Shown: in pieces, positions 3,072 through 23,016 of the stretch
Numbering within the stretch: position 1 is the first letter of the stretch
How the letters are laid out: every line of letters begins with the position of its first letter
Origin: a virus
Strand: one strand, 5' to 3'
DNA: 23,016 nt
IMG/VR virus record: IMGVR_UViG_3300007344_000267
Location: 1 to 23,016 of that record
The notes under the pieces: generated by a model
What the model was told of the DNA's origin: nothing
The model's database searches: none
Seen by the model: only the letters and a program-made list of their open reading frames with translations
Made by a program: the position numbers and the translations under genes

Positions 3072-4270
3072 AATTCTAATTTAATAGTTGTTCCTGGCAA
3101 TTCATCCCAAGCATTACCTTGTGAAGAAAGTACCCATAAAATATTTCCTTTTGCGTTTTCAGGTGCTGAACATTCTCCATCTGTAAAATAGAATAGACAA
3201 CTAAACTCATTGAGTTTTTCATTGTAATAATCTATAACAGGTTGAAAGTCTGTCCCACCTCTACCGTGTATTTCTAAATCTTTTCTTGGATTAAATTTAC
3301 TTATGTTAGATATTGCTGTATCACATTGTATAATTGTAACATCAGAACCTGTCTTCTTTATATGATGTAATTCATTAAGAAATTCTTTGAGTTCTTTTGT
3401 ATTAACAGAAGCTGATGTATCTATAGCTGCTAGTACATGCTTGTGCTTTTTAAATTTTAAACCAGGAAAGTCTGGTAATCTTTTGTTGAACTTTCTTCTA
3501 GAAACTTTAGTATAAGTTCTTGTAGATTTACCAATAAACCTTCTCATATATCCTTTCCAATCAAACTTTGGCGGATCTATTTGTTTAAGCTTTTCAATTA
3601 TACTTGCAATCTCACCAGGTACTGTACCACGCATCTTTTTTACCTGATCAGCTACTTGATCTAAGACATGTGCTGTTTGTGACTTTATCAATCTCTGAGT
3701 TGCTTCACTTATTTCTTCACTATCCCATTCATGTTCAGGAGTTGTAATTTCAGTTCCGTCACTTAAAGTAACACTGTTATCATTTCCTTCACATAAATCT
3801 TTTAAAGCATTACCTAACTCACTGTCTTCATTTTTTATCTTACTAAGCTCTTTGTAATAATATCTTGTACCAGCTTTGTAATCTAACTTATACCCTTGGT
3901 TAATATAAGTTTCTATAAAACAACCATCTTCAGGCAACCATGATCTTTCAATGTATTGATTAATCTCAATATCCATTGCTATATTTAATAGCTTTTTATC
4001 TTGAAGATCATTATAGTCTGTTAAATGAAAGAAAGCAATGTGTAATAACTCATGTTTTAATATGCCTACTTTTTGTATTGGAGAAAGTGTTTGCCAAAAA
4101 TCAGGATTAATAGCTAACTCATAGTTAATACCTTTAACGCAAACACCTGCTGTAGGCACTTTCTTTTGGGACCAAATTTTATTTAGTGACATAAGAAGAA
4201 GCCCGTAATAGGCTTCTCTTAACATAAGTTCTTTAGATGCTTTAGCTAAACTTTCTATATTATCTCTCAT
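3068..4270 (-). CDS. DUF2201-like metallopeptidase-fold plus VWA-like protein, MoxR partner
   Basis: The 400-residue protein has two parts. The N-terminal part carries HELLH at residues 73-77, a zinc-metallopeptidase HExxH signature, followed by NIAMDIEIN, as in the DUF2201 N-terminal family. The C-terminal part is a VWA-like domain with a full MIDAS: DTSAS at 284-288, Thr in RGGTDFQ near 340, and Asp in FTDGE near 364. Such proteins pair with MoxR ATPases, and the ATPase gene follows with a 4-base overlap. An RGTVPGE segment and a lysine/arginine-rich linker (residues 240-280) join the two parts. Whether the HExxH site is catalytic is unknown. The gene overlaps the upstream 146-aa gene by 11 bases. 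Confidence 0.88.
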   Translation of the reverse strand: MRDNIESLAKASKELMLREAYYGLLLMSLNKIWSQKKVPTAGVCVKGINYELAINPDFWQTLSPIQKVGILKHELLHIAFFHLTDYNDLQDKKLLNIAMDIEINQYIERSWLPEDGCFIETYINQGYKLDYKAGTRYYYKELSKIKNEDSELGNALKDLCEGNDNSVTLSDGTEITTPEHEWDSEEISEATQRLIKSQTAHVLDQVADQVKKMRGTVPGEIASIIEKLKQIDPPKFDWKGYMRRFIGKSTRTYTKVSRRKFNKRLPDFPGLKFKKHKHVLAAIDTSASVNTKELKEFLNELHHIKKTGSDVTIIQCDTAISNISKFNPRKDLEIHGRGGTDFQPVIDYYNEKLNEFSCLFYFTDGECSAPENAKGNILWVLSSQGNAWDELPGTTIKLEL

Positions 4271-4700
4271 CTTTAATTTTTATTATTACATCTTCAACAA
4301 AAGTATATCCGGTATCAATAAGTTTATTCTTAAAATCCATTGAAAAAGAATCTATTAAAGATTGTTTTGCTTCATAATCAAACTTGCCTTCATTAACTAT
4401 TTTAAATAATTGTTTATATGTAAGGTGTGATATACCAGGTCTAAAATCATCATCTAAGTAATCTTTTACTGCATTAGTTAGATTATCATAAAAAGTTTTA
4501 TAGTTTGTCTTTATATGTTTATCAGCTACAATACCTTGTTTAAGTACAAGTAATATGTTTATCACATTATAATCTGTTAGTTCTAAATTTTCCATTATGG
4601 TTAAACCAACAGTCCAGTTCTCATGATCTCTTGAAGATATCATAGACAGTATAGAATCAAACTCTTGTTTTTCTAGCATTTTGTTTTCCATATTAGTCAT
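4260..4700 (-). CDS. Hypothetical helical protein, 146 aa
   Basis: I do not recognise this protein. It is acidic and predicted mostly helical, with no cysteine pairs, signal or membrane segment. It overlaps the VWA gene by 11 bases and the DUF6915-like gene by 8, so it belongs to the same tightly coupled cluster as the MoxR-VWA pair and may be an accessory or substrate adaptor. That role is inferred from position only. Confidence 0.75.
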   Translation of the reverse strand: MTNMENKMLEKQEFDSILSMISSRDHENWTVGLTIMENLELTDYNVINILLVLKQGIVADKHIKTNYKTFYDNLTNAVKDYLDDDFRPGISHLTYKQLFKIVNEGKFDYEAKQSLIDSFSMDFKNKLIDTGYTFVEDVIIKIKDER

Positions 4701-5040
4701 TTAATTTTTCTGTTCTTATCATCCACATAGGTGGCTTTTTTGCATTTATATTATCTACCCATTCTTTTGCTGAAGGTATATAACCAAAGCAGTCTTCTTT
4801 AACATGTTGTTCTCCAACATATCTGGTATAAACTGTTTTACCATCTGAATTTGTAAATGATTTACCAAATTTAGATTCACATTCAAATATACCTTCTGAA
4901 TGATGCCTGAATATTCTATGTTTGCTATGACCTAGCCAACTCTTAGTTTCATCAAACCATTCATGTATATGAATATAATCTTCTATTATACCACCAAATT
5001 TTCTAACTGAAGATTTTGCATGTTGTAAAGGATGTGCCAT
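4693..5040 (-). CDS. DUF6915-like small protein, 115 aa
   Basis: The protein opens MAHPLQHAKSSVRKFGG and continues with a histidine-rich core (IHEWFDETK, HRIFRHHSEGIF), then GEQHV and YIPSAKEWV. This matches my memory of the uncharacterised DUF6915 family, found in bacteria and phages. The repeated His residues (HIHEW, RHH, EQHV) could bind a metal, but this is not shown. It overlaps both neighbours; its start shares one base with the stop of the upstream gene (TAATG), a coupling seen elsewhere in this window. Confidence 0.75.
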   Translation of the reverse strand: MAHPLQHAKSSVRKFGGIIEDYIHIHEWFDETKSWLGHSKHRIFRHHSEGIFECESKFGKSFTNSDGKTVYTRYVGEQHVKEDCFGYIPSAKEWVDNINAKKPPMWMIRTEKLND

Positions 5041-13650: not shown

Positions 13651-14046
13651 TTAAAATGGTTCTGAGCCGGGAGTCAAATCAAATTCAGATAACATATCCA
13701 ACCCGTTGTTTTCTAATTTTTGTATAAGTTCAGTAAATTCTTCTGTTTCAATTGTAATGTTTGGTTCAAATCCAGGAACCCATTCTATAGTGGTAGTCTT
13801 ATCTTTTTCATACATAGTTTCTACCATTATACTTTCAAAAAACTTATTCTTTTCTTCTTTATCTGTGACTTTAATGATTTTTCCAAACTGATCTCTCTTC
13901 CAATAAAAAGTATGTCTAAAGTTACATTCTTTATTAAAGCATATTAGATCAGCTTCATGTTTATCATTCATAAAAGTAACGCTCAACATATCTTCATTAC
14001 ATTGACGACATTTGTTTACGCTTTTTACAACTATTAAATCTTTCAT
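13651..14046 (-). CDS. Zinc-ribbon protein, 131 aa
   Basis: Cysteines at residues 13, 16, 36 and 41 (CRQC and CFNKEC) form a four-ligand zinc ribbon in the N-terminal third. The rest is acidic (TETEEFTELIQKLENN), with no other motif. Small zinc ribbons of this kind in phages often touch nucleic acid or the transcription machinery. The start is 10 bases from the next gene, so it is in the same operon. Confidence 0.65.
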   Translation of the reverse strand: MKDLIVVKSVNKCRQCNEDMLSVTFMNDKHEADLICFNKECNFRHTFYWKRDQFGKIIKVTDKEEKNKFFESIMVETMYEKDKTTTIEWVPGFEPNITIETEEFTELIQKLENNGLDMLSEFDLTPGSEPF

Positions 14047-18461: not shown

Positions 18462-18949
18462 TATACTATTTCTAAATTAACAGGATAATCTTCTACTAAA
18501 CCTTTTATAGCTTTTTGAGAAATCTCAATAGTGTTTGTTTTTAAAGGATTATCATCAGTATAATATAAATAGTTATATGTTATGGTATATTGTTCCGTAT
18601 ACTTGTTATATTCTTCTACAGTAGCTTTTACCATATCTTTGATGATTAGACCTTTTTCTTCCATTAGCTCTTTGGCTATGTTCCAGGTTTCAATATAGCT
18701 TGTACCAACGTATACCTCATCATTAGCCGTATACTGACCTTCTTCAGGGTATACTCCTAATGTAGCTAAGAAAAGCTTTTTTACATCAAGATTTGATGCA
18801 GATATTAAAGATACAACAGCTTCTATTATTTCTGGATCATTGACTGTATTTTTGTTGATATTCTGCAGCCTGCTCTGTATCATAGATAAGGCAATTGTTT
18901 TATCTATGTTGAAATCTAATTCTATGCTTTTTTTGTTTTTTCTTTTCAT
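18461..18949 (-). CDS. Hypothetical protein, 162 aa
   Basis: I do not recognise this protein. It is mixed alpha/beta and lysine-rich at the start (MKRKNKKSIEL), with a Tyr-rich central part (YTEQYTITYNYLYYTDDN) and no membrane or metal motif. Its leader carries copy B of the bipartite element, placing the ATG three bases after the second block. Coupling to the HTH gene suggests a joint regulatory unit. Confidence 0.7.
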   Translation of the reverse strand: MKRKNKKSIELDFNIDKTIALSMIQSRLQNINKNTVNDPEIIEAVVSLISASNLDVKKLFLATLGVYPEEGQYTANDEVYVGTSYIETWNIAKELMEEKGLIIKDMVKATVEEYNKYTEQYTITYNYLYYTDDNPLKTNTIEISQKAIKGLVEDYPVNLEIV

Positions 18950-18952
18950 GAT

Positions 18953-19006
18953 TTGAATTTACTCTGTGTAATCTAGATTTAGTTAGGAAGAGATGATGAT
19001 AGTAAA
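18953..19006 (-). promoter_or_regulatory. Bipartite leader element, copy B
   Basis: Minus strand: block 1 TTTACTATCATCATC then CTCTTCC-like, a 19-base spacer, block 2 CAGAGTAAATTCAA. Copy C at 22961-23016 has the same two blocks with the same 19-base spacer. It stands just before the 18949 gene and just after the terminator of the DUF2828 gene. A phage promoter, or a recognition site of a phage factor, is the likely reading. Confidence 0.5.
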
Positions 19007-19043
19007 AAATAAAGAGACTACAAGAAAGAATCCTGCAGTCTCT
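19004..19043 (-). terminator. Intrinsic terminator of the DUF2828 gene
   Basis: On the minus strand AGAGACTGCAGGA and TCTTGTAGTCTCT form a 13-bp stem (two G.U) with a 5-base loop, followed by TTATTTTTT. It begins 33 bases after the stop. Confidence 0.85.
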
Positions 19044-19075
19044 AAAAGTTTATATGTGCAGAACTGCAAACGCGC

Positions 19076-20470
19076 TTACGCTATGACTATACGGTCATAA
19101 CGCTCTACGTTTACAGTTCTGAGCATCAGCTCCATAGGAGTCTCTACAGACCCTTGAAGAACTGACTGTAGCACGGAAGGGCTAAATCCACTGACCAATC
19201 CCACACCTTGAGTATTGCACTTTGCAGGTACATTACCAAGTCTTCCGTTTACGTTCCAAAAGATGATATCAGGTCTGACATAACCTGCTTCAGCATACAT
19301 CCTGCTAATGTATTGCAAAGCACTCTCCTTGGTATCAGTAGCCTGATTAAACTCCATATCACTAATGATAAGTAGCTTAGTTGGCATATCTGATGGAGAT
19401 ACGTTATGTTCAACTGCTTTATCTAGTATAAGTTTAAAAACTTTTTCTAGATCAGTGCTCATCCCCCAATCTGCTTGATACAGACTTGTAGCTCTCTCAT
19501 ATATGTTGTTACCAACTACATGATGGAACTGGGGATTTTCACTGAAGGTCATCACATAATCCTTGAAACAAGACTTGTTTCTTTCAGATATGTAAAGCCC
19601 TAAAGCAACAGACACCTCCATAGGCAAACCGCTCATAGAGCCTGAGACATCGCAAATTGGAAACAACCTCTCCTCACTACCCTCCATATAATCTATAAGA
19701 TTACTCCACTGAGCCTGAATGGCATCAATGTTGTCTCTTTCTAGCTTAAGGATAAGTTCATGAGGATGAAGCACACCTGCATTGATAGAGGTTTTGCCCG
19801 CAAGGACATTCTCTATATACTTGGTGTAACGTTTCTCATCTTTGACAGCAAAGGTTCTACCATAGTTCTTCATGGCAACAGATGGTACATGCTCATATTG
19901 GATGTTACTCCAATCTTGCGCGCACATCTTCTGCTCAACCGTTTGGGATTTGGATACAATGTACTTGCGTAAATCTTTAGGTGTACAACCTTTGTATTTA
20001 CGCATAGCATTGAACCATTCTCCCTTTCTCGGAAAGAACTTAGCGAGTAAGCCTGCGTTATCTGATTCCTCCAACTGAGTAGCTAAATAGTTTAGCATAT
20101 CAGCATCAGGCTGGGCAGATTTGAAGATATCTTTCCAATAACCATACTCCTCAATATGTATAATAAGCTGTGAGAATAAATCTCTATCAACTTTATACAA
20201 GTAAGACATTATGGTTTGGAATAATCTCTTCTCTCCTGCCCCTCCTCTGCAATCTCTTGCCCAATACAAGATTTTACAGGCTAGTTGGGGGTTTTCAGCA
20301 TAGGCACTGTTCCAAACTCTAATGATATCATCAGTAGACATATGTCTAGATGCTCCTGCTAGGAAGAACATATCTAGACATTTGTCCATAGATGTCTGGT
20401 TGGTTACACAACCGTTATCAGTTAAAGTTTGGATGTCTTGTAGTGCTTGTGTTAGTGTTACGTTTGTCAT
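19076..20470 (-). CDS. DUF2828 protein: TROVE/Ro60-like helical domain plus VWA domain
   Basis: With the ATG at 20470 the protein has 464 residues. The N-terminal half is helical with YWARDCRGGAGEKRLF at about 69-84, EEYGYWKDIF at about 107-116 and VPSVAMKNYGRTF at about 195-207, all hallmarks of DUF2828. The C-terminal VWA domain has a full MIDAS: DVSGS at 274-278, Thr in GMSTD near 339 and Asp in ISDMEFNQA near 371. DUF2828 occurs in plants, fungi, giant viruses and phages and has the same domain order as Ro60, which binds Y RNAs and misfolded RNAs. An in-frame TTG at 20560 would add 30 residues, but the AAATCAAA leader pattern favours 20470. Upstream lies a structured, gene-free RNA-like region; the gene is richer in G+C than its left-hand neighbours. 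Confidence 0.88.
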   Translation of the reverse strand: MTNVTLTQALQDIQTLTDNGCVTNQTSMDKCLDMFFLAGASRHMSTDDIIRVWNSAYAENPQLACKILYWARDCRGGAGEKRLFQTIMSYLYKVDRDLFSQLIIHIEEYGYWKDIFKSAQPDADMLNYLATQLEESDNAGLLAKFFPRKGEWFNAMRKYKGCTPKDLRKYIVSKSQTVEQKMCAQDWSNIQYEHVPSVAMKNYGRTFAVKDEKRYTKYIENVLAGKTSINAGVLHPHELILKLERDNIDAIQAQWSNLIDYMEGSEERLFPICDVSGSMSGLPMEVSVALGLYISERNKSCFKDYVMTFSENPQFHHVVGNNIYERATSLYQADWGMSTDLEKVFKLILDKAVEHNVSPSDMPTKLLIISDMEFNQATDTKESALQYISRMYAEAGYVRPDIIFWNVNGRLGNVPAKCNTQGVGLVSGFSPSVLQSVLQGSVETPMELMLRTVNVERYDRIVIA

Positions 20471-20512
20471 AGCTTTGATATTTGTGATTTGATTTAGATT
20501 TGATTTAATTTT

Positions 20513-20536
20513 GGGGAGAGCTATTACACTCTCCCC
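20513..20536. other. GC-rich hairpin in the leader of the DUF2828 gene
   Basis: GGGGAGAG and CTCTCCCC pair (8 bp, 8-base loop). No U tract follows on either strand, so it is not a normal terminator. On the minus strand it is 43 bases before the ATG and could mark the 3' end of the upstream structured RNA or control translation. Confidence 0.5.
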
Positions 20537-20550
20537 TGTTGTTAATTTGT

Positions 20551-20960
20551 GGCTTTCCAAGGGGTGTTAAATAGTACAGATTATGGATTCCCCTTATACG
20601 GAAAGCCTCTCTAGTGTTGTTGTAGTTATAGAGACTGCTGACATAATCTTTGTTTTTAAATAACGGTCAGGATGTTATGTGTAGTTAATGATTATAGATA
20701 CTGCTGAATCATCCTTTAGCCGTTGGTGTAATCAGATTGATCTGTGTGTTGCTTTATTACTGATGTATTAATGCTGAATCAATCTTTCAAAAAACTTATT
20801 CTTTTGACAAGTTTTTAAACACACCTACTAATCTTCGGTGTGTCTAAGGCAGTTCCTAGGAAACTGTTGTCTACCTACAGCATTCACCGCTATGGTGTCT
20901 ACGCTGCCAACTCCTCCTGAGTGCACCTGGAGATTATTCTCCAACGCTTTGGGCTTAAGC
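20551..20960 (-). ncRNA. Candidate structured non-coding RNA upstream of the DUF2828 gene
   Basis: No reading frame here looks coding, yet paired segments are dense. (1) GGCTTTCC/GGAAAGCC (20551-20558 with 20600-20607) plus GGGG/CCCC (20561-20564 with 20590-20593). (2) AGATTATG (20578-20585) in that loop pairs with CATAATCT (20642-20649), a possible pseudoknot. (3) Two further repeats at 20662-20724 and 20734-20785. (4) A 7-bp hairpin at 20819-20843. (5) GGCAG/CTGCC (20848-20852 with 20904-20908) enclosing CACC/GGTG. (6) TGGAG/CTCCA at 20928-20943. Strand is inferred from the neighbouring genes. No tRNA, intron or known RNA motif was recognised. The boundary of the RNA is not known. Confidence 0.5.
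20578..20785 (-). repeat. Three diverged stem-loop repeats with compensatory stems
   Basis: Three units, minus strand: a 6-8 bp closing stem, then TCAGCA(G) directly inside its 5' arm, then an A/C-rich 3' side. Stems: AGATTATG/CATAATCT (20642-20649 with 20578-20585), AGGATG/CATCCT plus AACGG/CCGTT (20710-20715 with 20669-20674; 20720-20724 with 20662-20666), AGATTGAT/ATCAATCT (20778-20785 with 20734-20741). Stem letters change while pairing and the TCAGCA loop stay, which argues for selection on RNA shape. Confidence 0.55.
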
Positions 20961-20981
20961 ACCTGTTTATTCTGACCCAAA

Positions 20982-21191
20982 TCAGATTACTGGATTCCAA
21001 TGATATGTTGAGTACAAGTACTCTGTCATTGCATCTACATCTGAACCTGTTATTTCAGGTATATCAGATAAGATATCATCTAATCCATGTATGTTATCTA
21101 CTATGACAATTTTGTACATGTCATTTCTGTATGTTTTGATTGCAAGTTTTACCTTTCCATTAGGTGTAGCTTGCCATGCTACTATTTTCAT
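20982..21191 (-). CDS. Hypothetical protein, 69 aa
   Basis: The small protein starts MKIVAWQATPNGKVKLAIK and has two beta-like stretches (VKLAIKTYR, YKIVIVDNIHG) followed by an acidic helix (GSDVDAMTEYLYSTY). No family was recognised. It precedes the structured RNA region and the DUF2828 gene on the same strand and shares their higher G+C. Its leader holds AAATCAAAG followed by a lysine-coding-like A/G tract before the ATG. Confidence 0.6.
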   Translation of the reverse strand: MKIVAWQATPNGKVKLAIKTYRNDMYKIVIVDNIHGLDDILSDIPEITGSDVDAMTEYLYSTYHWNPVI

Positions 21192-21250
21192 ACGCTTTAC
21201 TCTTTCTTTGATTTAATAAAGGTAATAAATTTTAAGTGATTTTACAAGAA

Positions 21251-21290
21251 TGCGACACTGGTGACGCATAGGTACGACACCTGTGACGCA
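21251..21290. promoter_or_regulatory. Two palindrome-like 18-bp sites, possible operators
   Basis: Site 1 (21251-21268) TGCGACACTGGTGACGCA and site 2 (21273-21290) TACGACACCTGTGACGCA are near-palindromes with starts 22 bp apart, about two turns of DNA. Site 3 at 21405-21422 is TGCGTCACTGATGACGCA. Shared core: CAC-NN-NTGACGCA. They sit in the leader of the 69-aa gene, where a dimeric repressor or phage regulator could bind. Confidence 0.45.
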
Positions 21291-21351
21291 AAACTTGTAT
21301 CTAAATTCACTTTTAACTCACTAGCTATGAACCACTTACGTGGCTTTTCTT

Positions 21352-21403
21352 ATAACCTAACAATAGAATATAACATAAGAAGTATATACTCTATTGTTGT
21401 TAT
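21352..21403. other. 52-base inverted repeat between small genes
   Basis: ATAAC-(CT)-AACAATAGA (21352-21367) pairs with TCTATTGTT-GTTAT (21390-21403): 14 bp with one 2-base bulge. ATAT/ATAT extends the stem inside. It is followed directly by site 3. No U tract favours a plain terminator, so a regulatory or small-RNA hairpin is possible. The remaining part of the 234-base gap (21192-21425) holds a small CCAC/GTGG hairpin and no gene. Confidence 0.4.
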
Positions 21404-21404
21404 G

Positions 21405-21427
21405 TGCGTCACTGATGACGCATTTTT
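21405..21427 (+). terminator. Palindromic hairpin with U tract (also operator-like site 3)
   Basis: TGCGTCA-CTGA-TGACGCA is a perfect 7-bp hairpin followed on the plus strand by TTTTTATT. It could end antisense transcripts, or the similarity with sites 1 and 2 could mean it is a protein-binding palindrome. No plus-strand gene runs into it. Confidence 0.4.
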
Positions 21428-21758
21428 ATTCTTTTGTGAGGTATTCTTCATAATGATTACCATGTTCATCTACAGATATTCCTATAATCATACGCTCTCC
21501 TGGCTTAAGCTTTTCAAACTCTTCATTGAGTTTTTCATTGTCATACTTGTTTTGCAGGAAGTAGAAATAGTTTTTCTCCTCATCTGTATAGTCATCTAGA
21601 GGTGCAAGTGACTGGACTCTGATTCCCATAGCTGTGGCATCATACTCTGACATGTTGTAATGCTCTAACAGCCAGTATGGCATTTCCATTCTGTCATTAT
21701 TCTCACAGAGGTGTTGCCACTCAAATAGGTCATGATAATAATTTTTTATTCTGCTCAT
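21426..21758 (-). CDS. Hypothetical acidic protein, 110 aa
   Basis: The protein is acidic and aromatic-rich (YYHDLFEWQHL, DDYTDEEKNYFYFL), and ends with GERMIIGISVDEHGNHYEEY. I do not recognise it. It lies between two structured gaps in the block of higher G+C, and no other gene is close enough to be coupled to it. Confidence 0.6.
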   Translation of the reverse strand: MSRIKNYYHDLFEWQHLCENNDRMEMPYWLLEHYNMSEYDATAMGIRVQSLAPLDDYTDEEKNYFYFLQNKYDNEKLNEEFEKLKPGERMIIGISVDEHGNHYEEYLTKE

Positions 21759-21822
21759 GTTCTATTAACTTTGTAGCTATATAGTATATTACTTTAGCTG
21801 TGTTAGCAATTTTGGTTTAATA

Positions 21823-21910
21823 CAAGTACGGAGAATGTGGTAGGAGGTTGGTTCCTACTCACATATCTCCACATACTTGAAGTTTTTCCACGGTTTTACC
21901 CGCAAAAACT
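21823..21910 (-). ncRNA. Candidate small structured RNA: long bulged hairpin plus second hairpin
   Basis: In the 155-base gap 21759-21913, CAAGTA-(C)-GGAGA-ATGTG-GTAGGA (21823-21845) pairs with TCCTAC-(T)-CACAT-(A)-TCTCC-(ACA)-TACTTG (21853-21879): 22 bp with three small bulges and a 7-base loop. A second hairpin, AGTTTTT/AAAAACT with CGG/CCG inside, spans 21881-21910. Neither is followed by a good U tract on the minus strand. The long bulged stem recalls the general shape of Y RNA stems, but no Ro-binding motif was recognised. Confidence 0.45.
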
Positions 21911-21913
21911 CTC

Positions 21914-22300
21914 TTATAAGTCCTCTAAACTTGCGTCTGCAGTGTTTTGAACAGTGTTTTGAGGTGCAGGTGCTTTAAATACACCTAAAATGCTCTGTGC
22001 TGCTTGTGCTGCAAGTGCATCTCCAAAGTTACCACCATACTGCTGAGCTAAGCTTGCAGCCTGATCAAATGCTGACATGTCTGGTACCACATTGCCATTT
22101 GACGTGATAATCAGCTTACCACTTGGTCCAACACATCTTGTTGTAAACCATAGAGGTGTTCCTGTTTCTTCATCTACTCTGTGGTAGTCTCCTTGTGCAG
22201 CCTCAAACTCTGCTAATTCTGTTGCGTTACCTGATACTCCGTAAACAAAGGTAGGATTTCCGTTTTTTGATCTGTAAGATCTGATTAGTGTAATGTTCAT
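21914..22300 (-). CDS. Hypothetical protein with acidic C-terminal tail, 128 aa
   Basis: The N-terminal 80 residues look beta-rich (NITLIRSYRSKNGNPTFVYG, DEETGTPLWFTTR, GKLIITSNGNVVP), followed by an Ala/Gln helix (about 85-110) and a Pro/Asn-rich stretch ending DASLEDL. The order of strands and acidic tail resembles small ssDNA-binding or OB-fold proteins, but I cannot name a family. It has a long leader (340 bases) with repeats, and AAATCAAAATT just before its ATG. Confidence 0.7.
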   Translation of the reverse strand: MNITLIRSYRSKNGNPTFVYGVSGNATELAEFEAAQGDYHRVDEETGTPLWFTTRCVGPSGKLIITSNGNVVPDMSAFDQAASLAQQYGGNFGDALAAQAAQSILGVFKAPAPQNTVQNTADASLEDL

Positions 22301-22309
22301 AATTTTGAT

Positions 22310-22339
22310 TTGGTTAAAAAATTGTTGGTTAAAAAATTG
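22310..22339. repeat. Perfect 15-bp tandem repeat in the leader of the 21914 gene
   Basis: TTGGTTAAAAAATTG occurs twice without a gap (22310-22324 and 22325-22339), between the start of the gene and the rest of the leader. It might be a duplicated binding site or slippage product. Confidence 0.7.
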
Positions 22340-22398
22340 ATTACTGATTCTGACATATATTCATTACTTGCTCATAACGCTTATGCTAATAGAGCTGT

Positions 22399-22627
22399 AA
22401 TAAATATATTAAGGAAAAGAAAGGAAAAAAAGTGGCTTTAAATGACTTTAAAAGACTTTTTACCCTAAACAAGCTGACATAGCTCAATTACAGTATGACT
22501 ATAAGAGCTGACGTAGCTAAACTTGCGCAGAAAACGCAAGTAAATATTAATAAAAAGAAAGGAAAAAAAAAGAGTTGAAAAAAGAGTTGAAAAAATAACT
22601 TTAAAAGTCTTTAAAAGACTTTAAAGG
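22399..22627. repeat. Repeat-rich AT tract, possible origin or control region
   Basis: The tract holds two copies of AAAAGAAAGGAAAAAAA (around 22415 and 22554), GACTTTAAAAGACTTT-type blocks near 22443 and 22600 (three 10-bp CTTTAAAAG units in tandem at 22599-22627), a 12-bp GAGTTGAAAAAA tandem pair near 22571, AGCTGACATAGCT (22472-22484) and AGCTGACGTAGCT (22506-22518), and the hairpin ACTTGCG/CGCAAGT (22521-22541). No gene fits in 22301-22640. The mixture of iteron-like sites and an AT-rich stretch suits a replication origin, but transcription control is equally possible. Confidence 0.4.
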
Positions 22628-22640
22628 AGTTGACAGAGAT

Positions 22641-22937
22641 TCATTTCTTACTAGACTTGCCATTCTTACCATTTCTAGCGCGGTTAGTAGAGCGCTTTTC
22701 TCTTACTAGCTTGCCTGATTTAGTGTGGGACACGTCCATACCCGGTATACTCTTCTTTCTTGTGACCTTATTAAGCTTGGCTCTGTATTTCTTGCGCTCT
22801 GGTGTGCTGTGGTATTCTTTGTTGTAGGCATTCTTCTTTGCTCTTGCCTTGGGATTCTTAGCAAAGTATTTTGCTGACTTGCTTTTGCCTGTGCTTTTGC
22901 CAGCGTTGCGGTTTCTCTTATTTGTCTGTTTGCTCAT
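22641..22937 (-). CDS. Small very basic protein, possible nucleic-acid binder, 98 aa
   Basis: I chose ATG 22937 (MSKQTNKRNRNAGKS); an ATG at 22952 adds MYIRN. The protein is about a third Lys/Arg. It contains NKEYHSTPERKKYRAKLNK, followed by GMDVSHTKSGKLV and TNRARN, which resembles short phage proteins related to HNH-like folds (YHxTPExKKxR..., DxxHxxGxxxxxxxxNxR). The catalytic histidines are reduced to one, so nuclease activity is doubtful. Binding to DNA, RNA or the packaged genome is the likely role. Confidence 0.65.
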   Translation of the reverse strand: MSKQTNKRNRNAGKSTGKSKSAKYFAKNPKARAKKNAYNKEYHSTPERKKYRAKLNKVTRKKSIPGMDVSHTKSGKLVREKRSTNRARNGKNGKSSKK

Positions 22938-22960
22938 ATTTCTAATATACAAAAAATTTC

Positions 22961-23016
22961 TTGGATTTCCTCTGTATTCTGTATAATGTAGAAGGAAGGA
23001 GGATGATGATAGTAAA
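22961..23016 (-). promoter_or_regulatory. Bipartite leader element, copy C (may continue past the window)
   Basis: Minus strand: TTTACTATCATCATCC, CTTCC, a 19-base spacer, then CAGAGGAAATCCAA. It precedes the 22937 gene by about 23 bases. Block 2 matches copy B in 12 of 14 positions and block 1 is nearly identical. Confidence 0.5.

Follow-up and report, generated by a model that had tools for sequence, protein, structure and literature searches.

The locus described here may well encode a viral Ro-like ribonucleoprotein whose RNA partner is not a Y RNA but a set of short hairpins marked by the motif CAGCA. It lies on the minus strand of a 23,016-nucleotide (nt) stretch of viral DNA (positions 1 to 23,016 of IMG/VR record IMGVR_UViG_3300007344_000267), which was analysed whole and is called the window below, and it consists of a gene for a DUF2828/DUF7788 protein (19076..20470) and the non-coding block directly upstream. 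We moderately favour this reading on the grounds of the Ro60 fold of the protein, the enrichment of the hairpins near genes of its family, a test that does not presuppose pairing, hairpin matches in whole genomes and the homology of a Pistol ribozyme at the head of the block; from these we infer the binding, expression, cleavage and purpose of the protein/RNA pair. The hairpin family itself and its genomic link to DUF2828 genes in phages and bacteria are, at the level of sequence, well supported.

The open reading frame (ORF) runs from an ATG at 20470 to a stop at 19076 and specifies 464 amino acids (aa); an alternative TTG start at 20560 would extend it to 494 aa. The product matches the Pfam families DUF7788 (4.9e-49) and DUF2828 (3.4e-35) and the PHROGs family phrog_850, 'RNA-binding protein' (3.2e-126). 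Its AlphaFold model, computed with 25 relatives as input, has a mean predicted local distance difference test score of 88.3 and a predicted template modelling score of 0.88, and in the Foldseek comparison with Ro60 proposed in an earlier note on this DNA all 11 PDB chains matched at E<=0.001 were Ro60 or TROVE structures. VIA-align placed the model on the Ro autoantigen 1yvp_A with a Z score of 21.1 over 406 residues (root-mean-square deviation 4.3, 11% identity), against 9.4 for the best non-Ro structure. Residues D274, S276, S278, T339 and D371, which from knowledge of the family we take to form the metal ion-dependent adhesion site (MIDAS) of the vWA domain, are invariant among 25 aligned sequences, so that the Ro60-like order claimed by the same note, a helical part followed by a vWA domain with an intact MIDAS, stands. 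By sequence, the TROVE profile is not matched (a Pfam scan at E<=1 returned DUF7788 and DUF2828 only) and a PDB sequence search reached TROVE entries only at E 0.91–0.92; despite this, the AlphaFold model, the Foldseek and VIA-align results and the invariant MIDAS lead us to regard the protein, as modelled, as a DUF2828 member of the Ro60 fold.

In bacteria, Y RNA genes adjoin rsr. The window resembles Ro60 and bacterial Rsr systems in the ring-plus-vWA fold with MIDAS and in the presence of non-coding RNA beside the gene, and differs in the Pfam assignment of the protein, in the lack of a TROVE match at E<=1 and, as regards the RNA, in having a short CAGCA hairpin in several copies. A profile for this Ro-like family matches 674 of 50,697 phage records, and Ro-like proteins in phages are not new: a phage-encoded Ro60 fold is in the PDB from Thermus phage phiLo (9l5y), the 'Ro-like RNA binding protein' of mycobacteriophages is, as in Faith1 gp55, a DUF2828/DUF7788 protein like that of the window, and such proteins are mentioned in the accessible text of three papers (PMC8375218, PMC7824862, PMC7765460). 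Neither the phiLo and mycobacteriophage records nor the accessible text of those papers names a partner RNA, and a literature search that covered few subscription papers and no bioRxiv preprints found no paper, in the text it could reach, tying DUF2828 to an RNA. In one relative (L024 3724-5975) the DUF2828 gene is split by an inserted ORF of 291 aa (4148-5023), which by eye reads as a LAGLIDADG-type homing endonuclease.

Upstream of the gene, 511 nt (20471-20981) contain only short ORFs, none of them credited. The interval 20500-20924 has a folding energy of -111.1 kcal/mol, lower than that of any of 100 shuffles (mean -80.25; z -5.50), and with the ribozyme included z is -5.68, in agreement with the earlier description of about 510 gene-free bases rich in pairing. 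Among 14 close relatives (L178–L189, L202 and L232; 47–58% identity), 11 likewise have a gap of at least 245 nt separating the gene from the closest ORF of at least 50 aa on its strand. Three hairpins with differing stems and a common plan lie in the gap of the window, and were captured by a descriptor in which an A precedes a 5' arm beginning with [A/G]G, at most 3 nt separate this arm from CAGCA, and a loop leads to the complementary 3' arm, itself followed by G[U/A]. Hairpin 1 (20734..20785, minus strand, as are all three) has arms AGATTGATT and GATCAATCT around CAGCA and a loop of 29, followed by GA; hairpin 2 (20669..20715) has arms AGGATG and CATCCT, with ATT before CAGCA, a loop of 27 and again GA; hairpin 3 (20578..20649) has arms AGATTATG and CATAATCT, with T before CAGCA, a loop of 50 and GT. 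A model of the family (R1), trained on 29 hairpins from outside the window, found hairpin 1 at E 0.0045 (as L001 4684-4740) and hairpin 2 at E 0.029 (as L001 4754-4805). Hairpin 3 may in addition form a pseudoknot (20551..20607, minus strand), in which the loop segments GGCTTTCC (20607-20600) and AAGGGG (20595-20590) would pair with the downstream GGAAAGCC (20558-20551) and CCCCTT (20564-20559). The 8-bp block is matched by 2.3% of mononucleotide shuffles; the layout recurs in relatives with other letters, single cases being weak, and over the window and eight close relatives between 0.7% and 29% of such shuffles are as good, with 7% and 76% for two distant loci.

An upstream structure conserved in related phages, on which the earlier note had staked its proposal, was found: in 12 of 14 relatives (L178–L185, L187–L189, L202, L232 and L196) a clear copy lies no more than 700 nt upstream of the gene, with a poor copy only in L196 and, in L232, none by the descriptor and one by R1. 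Between L188 and L189 a stem change is compensated (GGGCTTTCA/TGGAAGCCC versus GGGCTTCTA/TAGAAGCCC). In a set of 121 viral DUF2828 loci, which totals 1.05 Mb and includes duplicates, the descriptor matched 46 times in the 700 nt upstream of the gene, 4 times further upstream and 45 times downstream, where most matches are no more than a few hundred nt from the gene; the gene itself has no match, and the entire opposite strand has 2. In 92 loci from bacteria and named phages the figures were 11 upstream, 1 downstream, 2 elsewhere and 4 on the opposite strand; the downstream match, in Cronobacter phage S13, was discounted, as it overlaps annotated tRNAs.

Covariation, which the earlier note had suggested examining, was looked at in these copies. 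In alignment A3 all 203 cells (100%) are paired and six of seven pairs are changed on both sides, yet the descriptor had already selected for pairing, and copies from the window's own group are of no use for this purpose because they are identical over the RNA block. The support for pairing is therefore taken from a test in which only the 5' half of the hairpin (A[A/G]G, 7–9 nt, CAGCA) was sought in 213 loci, over 344 kb near the gene and 1.68 Mb of whole opposite strand, and a partner arm was then scored as an exact 6-nt complement followed by G, 10–135 nt away, with 500 shuffles of the arms among loci. Near the gene, 72 of 330 5' halves had a partner arm (shuffled mean 4.2, maximum 12); elsewhere on the gene strand 10 of 166 were paired against 1.0 expected, and on the opposite strand 0 of 112 against 0.7. 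Some loci are related, so that these counts are not fully independent; 33 different arms were paired.

In the 92 loci from bacteria and named phages, R1 returned 85 matches at E<=2, 83 of them on the gene strand, and at E<=0.01 39 of 42 matches lay on the same strand within 800 nt of the gene, a region that makes up 11.4% of the space searched (35 of 38 without the four training copies). A near match was present in 28 of the 92 loci at E<=0.01 and in 35 at E<=0.1. On 77 viral loci, training copies included, 95 of 96 matches at E<=1 were on the gene strand. Two R1 matches (1410-1470 and 1602-1662) also lie upstream of the DUF2828 gene of L352, a contig titled Lokiarchaeota, which may be a binning error or a virus.

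In whole genomes, R1 at E<=0.1 matched 44 of 50 DUF2828 records (best 3.3e-14, training records included) and all 11 named DUF2828 phages outside the training set (KVP40, FelixO1, P100, NCTC12673, Faith1, S13, OC, Ahp1, Milchi, Alsa_4 and phiM7), nine of them at E<=0.01. Among five other phages it matched SPO1 only (E 0.019), leaving T4, phiKZ, RB49 and crAss001 without a match; of these five, T4, phiKZ, SPO1 and RB49 gave no match to the DUF2828 protein profile, and crAss001 gave a weak partial one. Genomes with several hairpin copies are common. Five of the named phages (P100, FelixO1, NCTC12673 and, weakly, KVP40 and Faith1) have copies within 1 kb of the gene; Listeria phage P100 has three clear ones upstream of gp165, between a tRNA gene and gp165, and those of FelixO1 fill gaps between tRNA genes. 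Far copies lie about 7 kb from the gene in KVP40, about 50 kb in OC and about 15–43 kb in the contigs of L019 and L029. The contig of L029 (G015) has six R1 matches on one strand at 103131-119481, 23–40 kb from its DUF2828 gene. A 158-nt non-coding RNA of Campylobacter phage NCTC12673, described in the accessible text of its report as the most densely transcribed feature of that phage (PMC6024767), was considered as a CAGCA RNA and rejected, as it contains no CAGCA.

Several results weigh against assigning the hairpins to the protein in this way. R1 at E<=0.1 also matched 17 of 50 control records (best 3.7e-5). These controls are imperfect, in that DUF2828 was sought in 40 of the 50 whole records and many are fragments, including L255 and L257, which at 100% and 99% identity belong to the window's own kind, so that some may come from genomes with a DUF2828 gene lying off the fragment. 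By R1, 57 of the 92 bacterial and named-phage loci have no near copy at E<=0.1, and hairpin 3 of the window is not matched at E<=1. In six of the 11 named phages copies lie at least 3 kb from the gene, and the near copy is weak in KVP40 (E 0.06) and Faith1 (E 0.04). Lastly, no tRNA gene was found in the window.

The earlier note had pictured a Ro-like gene beside a structured RNA and had pointed to the Y RNA gene next to rsr in bacteria. Of this picture the Ro60 fold and a structured RNA conserved with the gene family stand. The RNA shows no mark of a Y RNA: Rfam returned no Y RNA family for 18960-21480 (matches up to E 5) or for 14 regions upstream of the gene in relatives (up to E 1). Y RNAs diverge, and a missing match is therefore no proof of absence. 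Most likely, the RNA of the window is a Pistol ribozyme plus CAGCA hairpins that resemble the Class I RNAs of Dictyostelium, and is not a recognized Y RNA.

The Pistol self-cleaving ribozyme (20921..20986, minus strand) is a full-length match to RF02679 (model positions 1–68 of 68; 51.1 bits against a gathering score of 34.5); it stands at the start of the gap and overlaps the stop codon of an upstream ORF of 69 aa (20982-21191). From knowledge of the family, we assume the cut to fall between 20926 and 20925, which makes 20925 the first base of the product. Directly past this predicted cut, and ahead of the three hairpins, lies a conserved element (20873..20925, minus strand), recognized by pairwise comparison with L073 and L178: window and L073 are 72% identical over 54 nt from the cut site, and L178 and L073 87% over 46 nt. 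In a pattern scan the element was confined to the group of the window, to the L178 contig and to L073 and L145. In the L073 and L145 contigs it follows a Pistol match of 33.9 bits, just below threshold; in L178, a DUF2828 phage, the place of Pistol (about 3590-3700) is taken by a hammerhead-like motif that is below threshold in Rfam (RAGATH-1, 32.6 against 56.3 bits; Hammerhead_3, 24.6 against 48.5) and has the core letters, with a predicted cut at the matching letter of the element. On these letters the motif is a probable hammerhead ribozyme, and since a predicted hammerhead-like cut in L178 and a predicted Pistol cut in L073 and the window precede the same element, unrelated ribozymes seem to have been swapped in front of one RNA element.

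An association of Pistol with phage genes is already known from the accessible text of PMC4604425; what distinguishes the window from Pistols elsewhere is its position before the RNA block of a Ro-like gene. That position could be fortuitous, Pistol and element forming a mobile phage module that by chance precedes the DUF2828 gene and is unconnected with the Ro-like protein, a serious possibility if not the one we would back. It is favoured by the occurrence of the pair in L073, whose contig has no DUF2828 match, and in L145, where DUF2828 was checked within a 12.6-kb locus only, and by the frequency of Pistols in viral contigs (at least 120 stretches). Pistol was also rejected as a general DUF2828 partner: three of 24 DUF2828 records have one, all from the window's own group, and in a further mixed set none of 50 had one above threshold, the two sub-threshold cases being L073 and L145. 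Given the L073 contig without a profile match and the 21 of 24 records without Pistol, the ribozyme and its element are not tied to DUF2828. The module view may thus hold for these two; it leaves the CAGCA hairpins untouched, their link to DUF2828 being much wider.

We hypothesize that the RNA partners of the DUF2828 protein are the CAGCA hairpins, each with a variable closing stem, an unpaired CAGCA by the 5' arm and a variable loop, and we infer that the protein binds them. The Pistol ribozyme, present by homology and presumed to cut, would cleave a shared transcript just before the RNA block, separating the block from the upstream mRNA and leaving it with a defined 5'-OH end. By analogy with Ro60, the hairpin stem might stay outside the ring, with the unpaired CAGCA or an RNA tail entering the cavity, and the particle would likely act as a chaperone, guard or quality control for phage RNAs, tRNAs being candidate clients. 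Through hairpin 3, which is close to the start codon and possibly pseudoknotted, the protein may regulate itself.

The last point borders on another explanation, namely that the hairpins are cis-acting leader elements, bound in the mRNA leader by the DUF2828 protein itself or by another factor, and that the ribozyme trims this leader with no small RNA set free. The arrangement in the window and its close relatives would suit it, as the copies immediately precede the gene there and the final, possibly pseudoknotted copy in most of them ends 73–119 nt before it. In other phages, however, copies follow the gene or lie many kilobases away, in FelixO1 between tRNA genes, and the several copies common in a genome also count against leader elements. 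Copies downstream of the gene or kilobases off argue for an RNA acting in trans, and we judge the leader explanation unlikely.

Candidate tRNA clients are suggested, and no more, by the surroundings of the DUF2828 gene in other genomes, where it is often near tRNA genes; this is the weakest step of the proposal. In four DUF2828 sets, 14 of 28, 7 of 63, 30 of 80 and 6 of 12 loci have at least one tRNA gene, against 2 of 73 and 7 of 78 control loci, the locus lengths differing among these sets. The gene stands among 22 and 18 tRNA genes in L188 and L189, respectively, and in two Chloroflexi contigs the gene and the hairpins are found among many tRNA genes. That the hairpins are instead small RNAs or processing signals of phage tRNA clusters, travelling with DUF2828 and not bound by its product, would accord with this tRNA richness, with the FelixO1 copies and with the tRNA arrays that enclose gene and hairpins in L188, L189, L349 and L350, but is very unlikely in view of the hairpins without tRNA in the window and, by ARAGORN, in L178, L179, L181–L187 and L202 (Rfam lists one tRNA in L184), and of the three P100 copies set between tRNA and gp165. 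Two further RNAs were seen near DUF2828 genes on viral contigs: tmRNA genes in L035 (10323-10744) and L199 (7729-8218), and an above-threshold freshwater-1 RNA match inside the tRNA array upstream of the gene in L188 (2910-2971).

The preferred partners, the CAGCA hairpins, have a counterpart in the Class I RNAs of Dictyostelium (RF01414), with which they share the order stem, CAGCAA, A/U-rich loop, stem and CUG, a length of about 60 nt and stems that differ and still pair. According to the accessible text of PMC7919456, Class I RNAs start with AAG, end with CUGU, have a short stem with compensating changes and a conserved motif beside its 5' arm, and were reported only from social amoebae, being found in no other organism tested. 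The window copies (AAAG..CAGCA..CTGA/CTGT) and those of relatives have the features of that list, the letters CAGCA being taken from the RF01414 consensus. Searching 50 DUF2828 records (about 3.7 Mb) with RF01414, a model that others had derived from the amoebal RNAs, gave 26 matches at E<=0.01, spread over 18 records, and 19 of these matches reached E<=0.001; 50 control records (about 2.5 Mb) gave three and none, respectively. Of the 26, 13 are on the same strand within 1 kb of the gene, as computed from contig ranges. The gathering score of 41.5 bits was passed by one phage copy, in the L232 contig (41.7 bits), and by no window copy, the latter giving no RF01414 match up to E 5. At E<=0.5 the model also matches five of 14 well-known genomes, none above threshold. 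A further difference lies in the amoebal genes, which carry a DUSE promoter element about 60 nt upstream, and in the RRM protein Rnp1A, a known partner of the amoebal RNAs (accessible text of PMC7919456).

The comparison rests on a short motif, and the likeness may reflect shared ancestry or convergence on one kind of binding protein. We advance only tentatively a broader view, in which DUF2828 would be a second widespread branch of Ro60, present in phages, bacteria and an archaeal metagenome bin and equipped with the CAGCA hairpin as an ancient partner RNA of its own; the Class I RNAs would be the eukaryotic branch of the same RNA family, working with a Ro-like protein, and release by a ribozyme would be a feature of the window's phage, unrelated ribozyme classes having been exchanged there.

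Other features of the block can be noted briefly. A plain hairpin (ACACACC/GGTGTGT; 20819..20843, minus strand) is predicted from sequence and pairing, and a strong GC hairpin, an inverted repeat with predicted pairing, precedes the start codon (20513..20536, minus strand); the latter has no T run after it on the minus strand and is listed as terminator-like on the plus strand. An exact repeat of 22 nt joins the RNA block (20784-20805) to a coding sequence at 13651-14046 (repeat at 13832-13853), both on the minus strand. A DNA search of GenBank phages with 18900-23016 gave a sole match, inside the protein gene, and no homologue of the whole RNA. L179 (231-305) and L181 (3424-3498) share another conserved block of hairpin-like sequence upstream of their CAGCA hairpins, with 90.7% identity over 75 nt.

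Placed right at the head of an RNA block of this kind, a phage Pistol ribozyme would acquire a concrete role. If the likeness to Class I RNA is one of homology, that orphan RNA class gains a candidate protein partner. For the phage DUF2828 proteins themselves, a defined candidate partner RNA makes their biochemistry testable at once.

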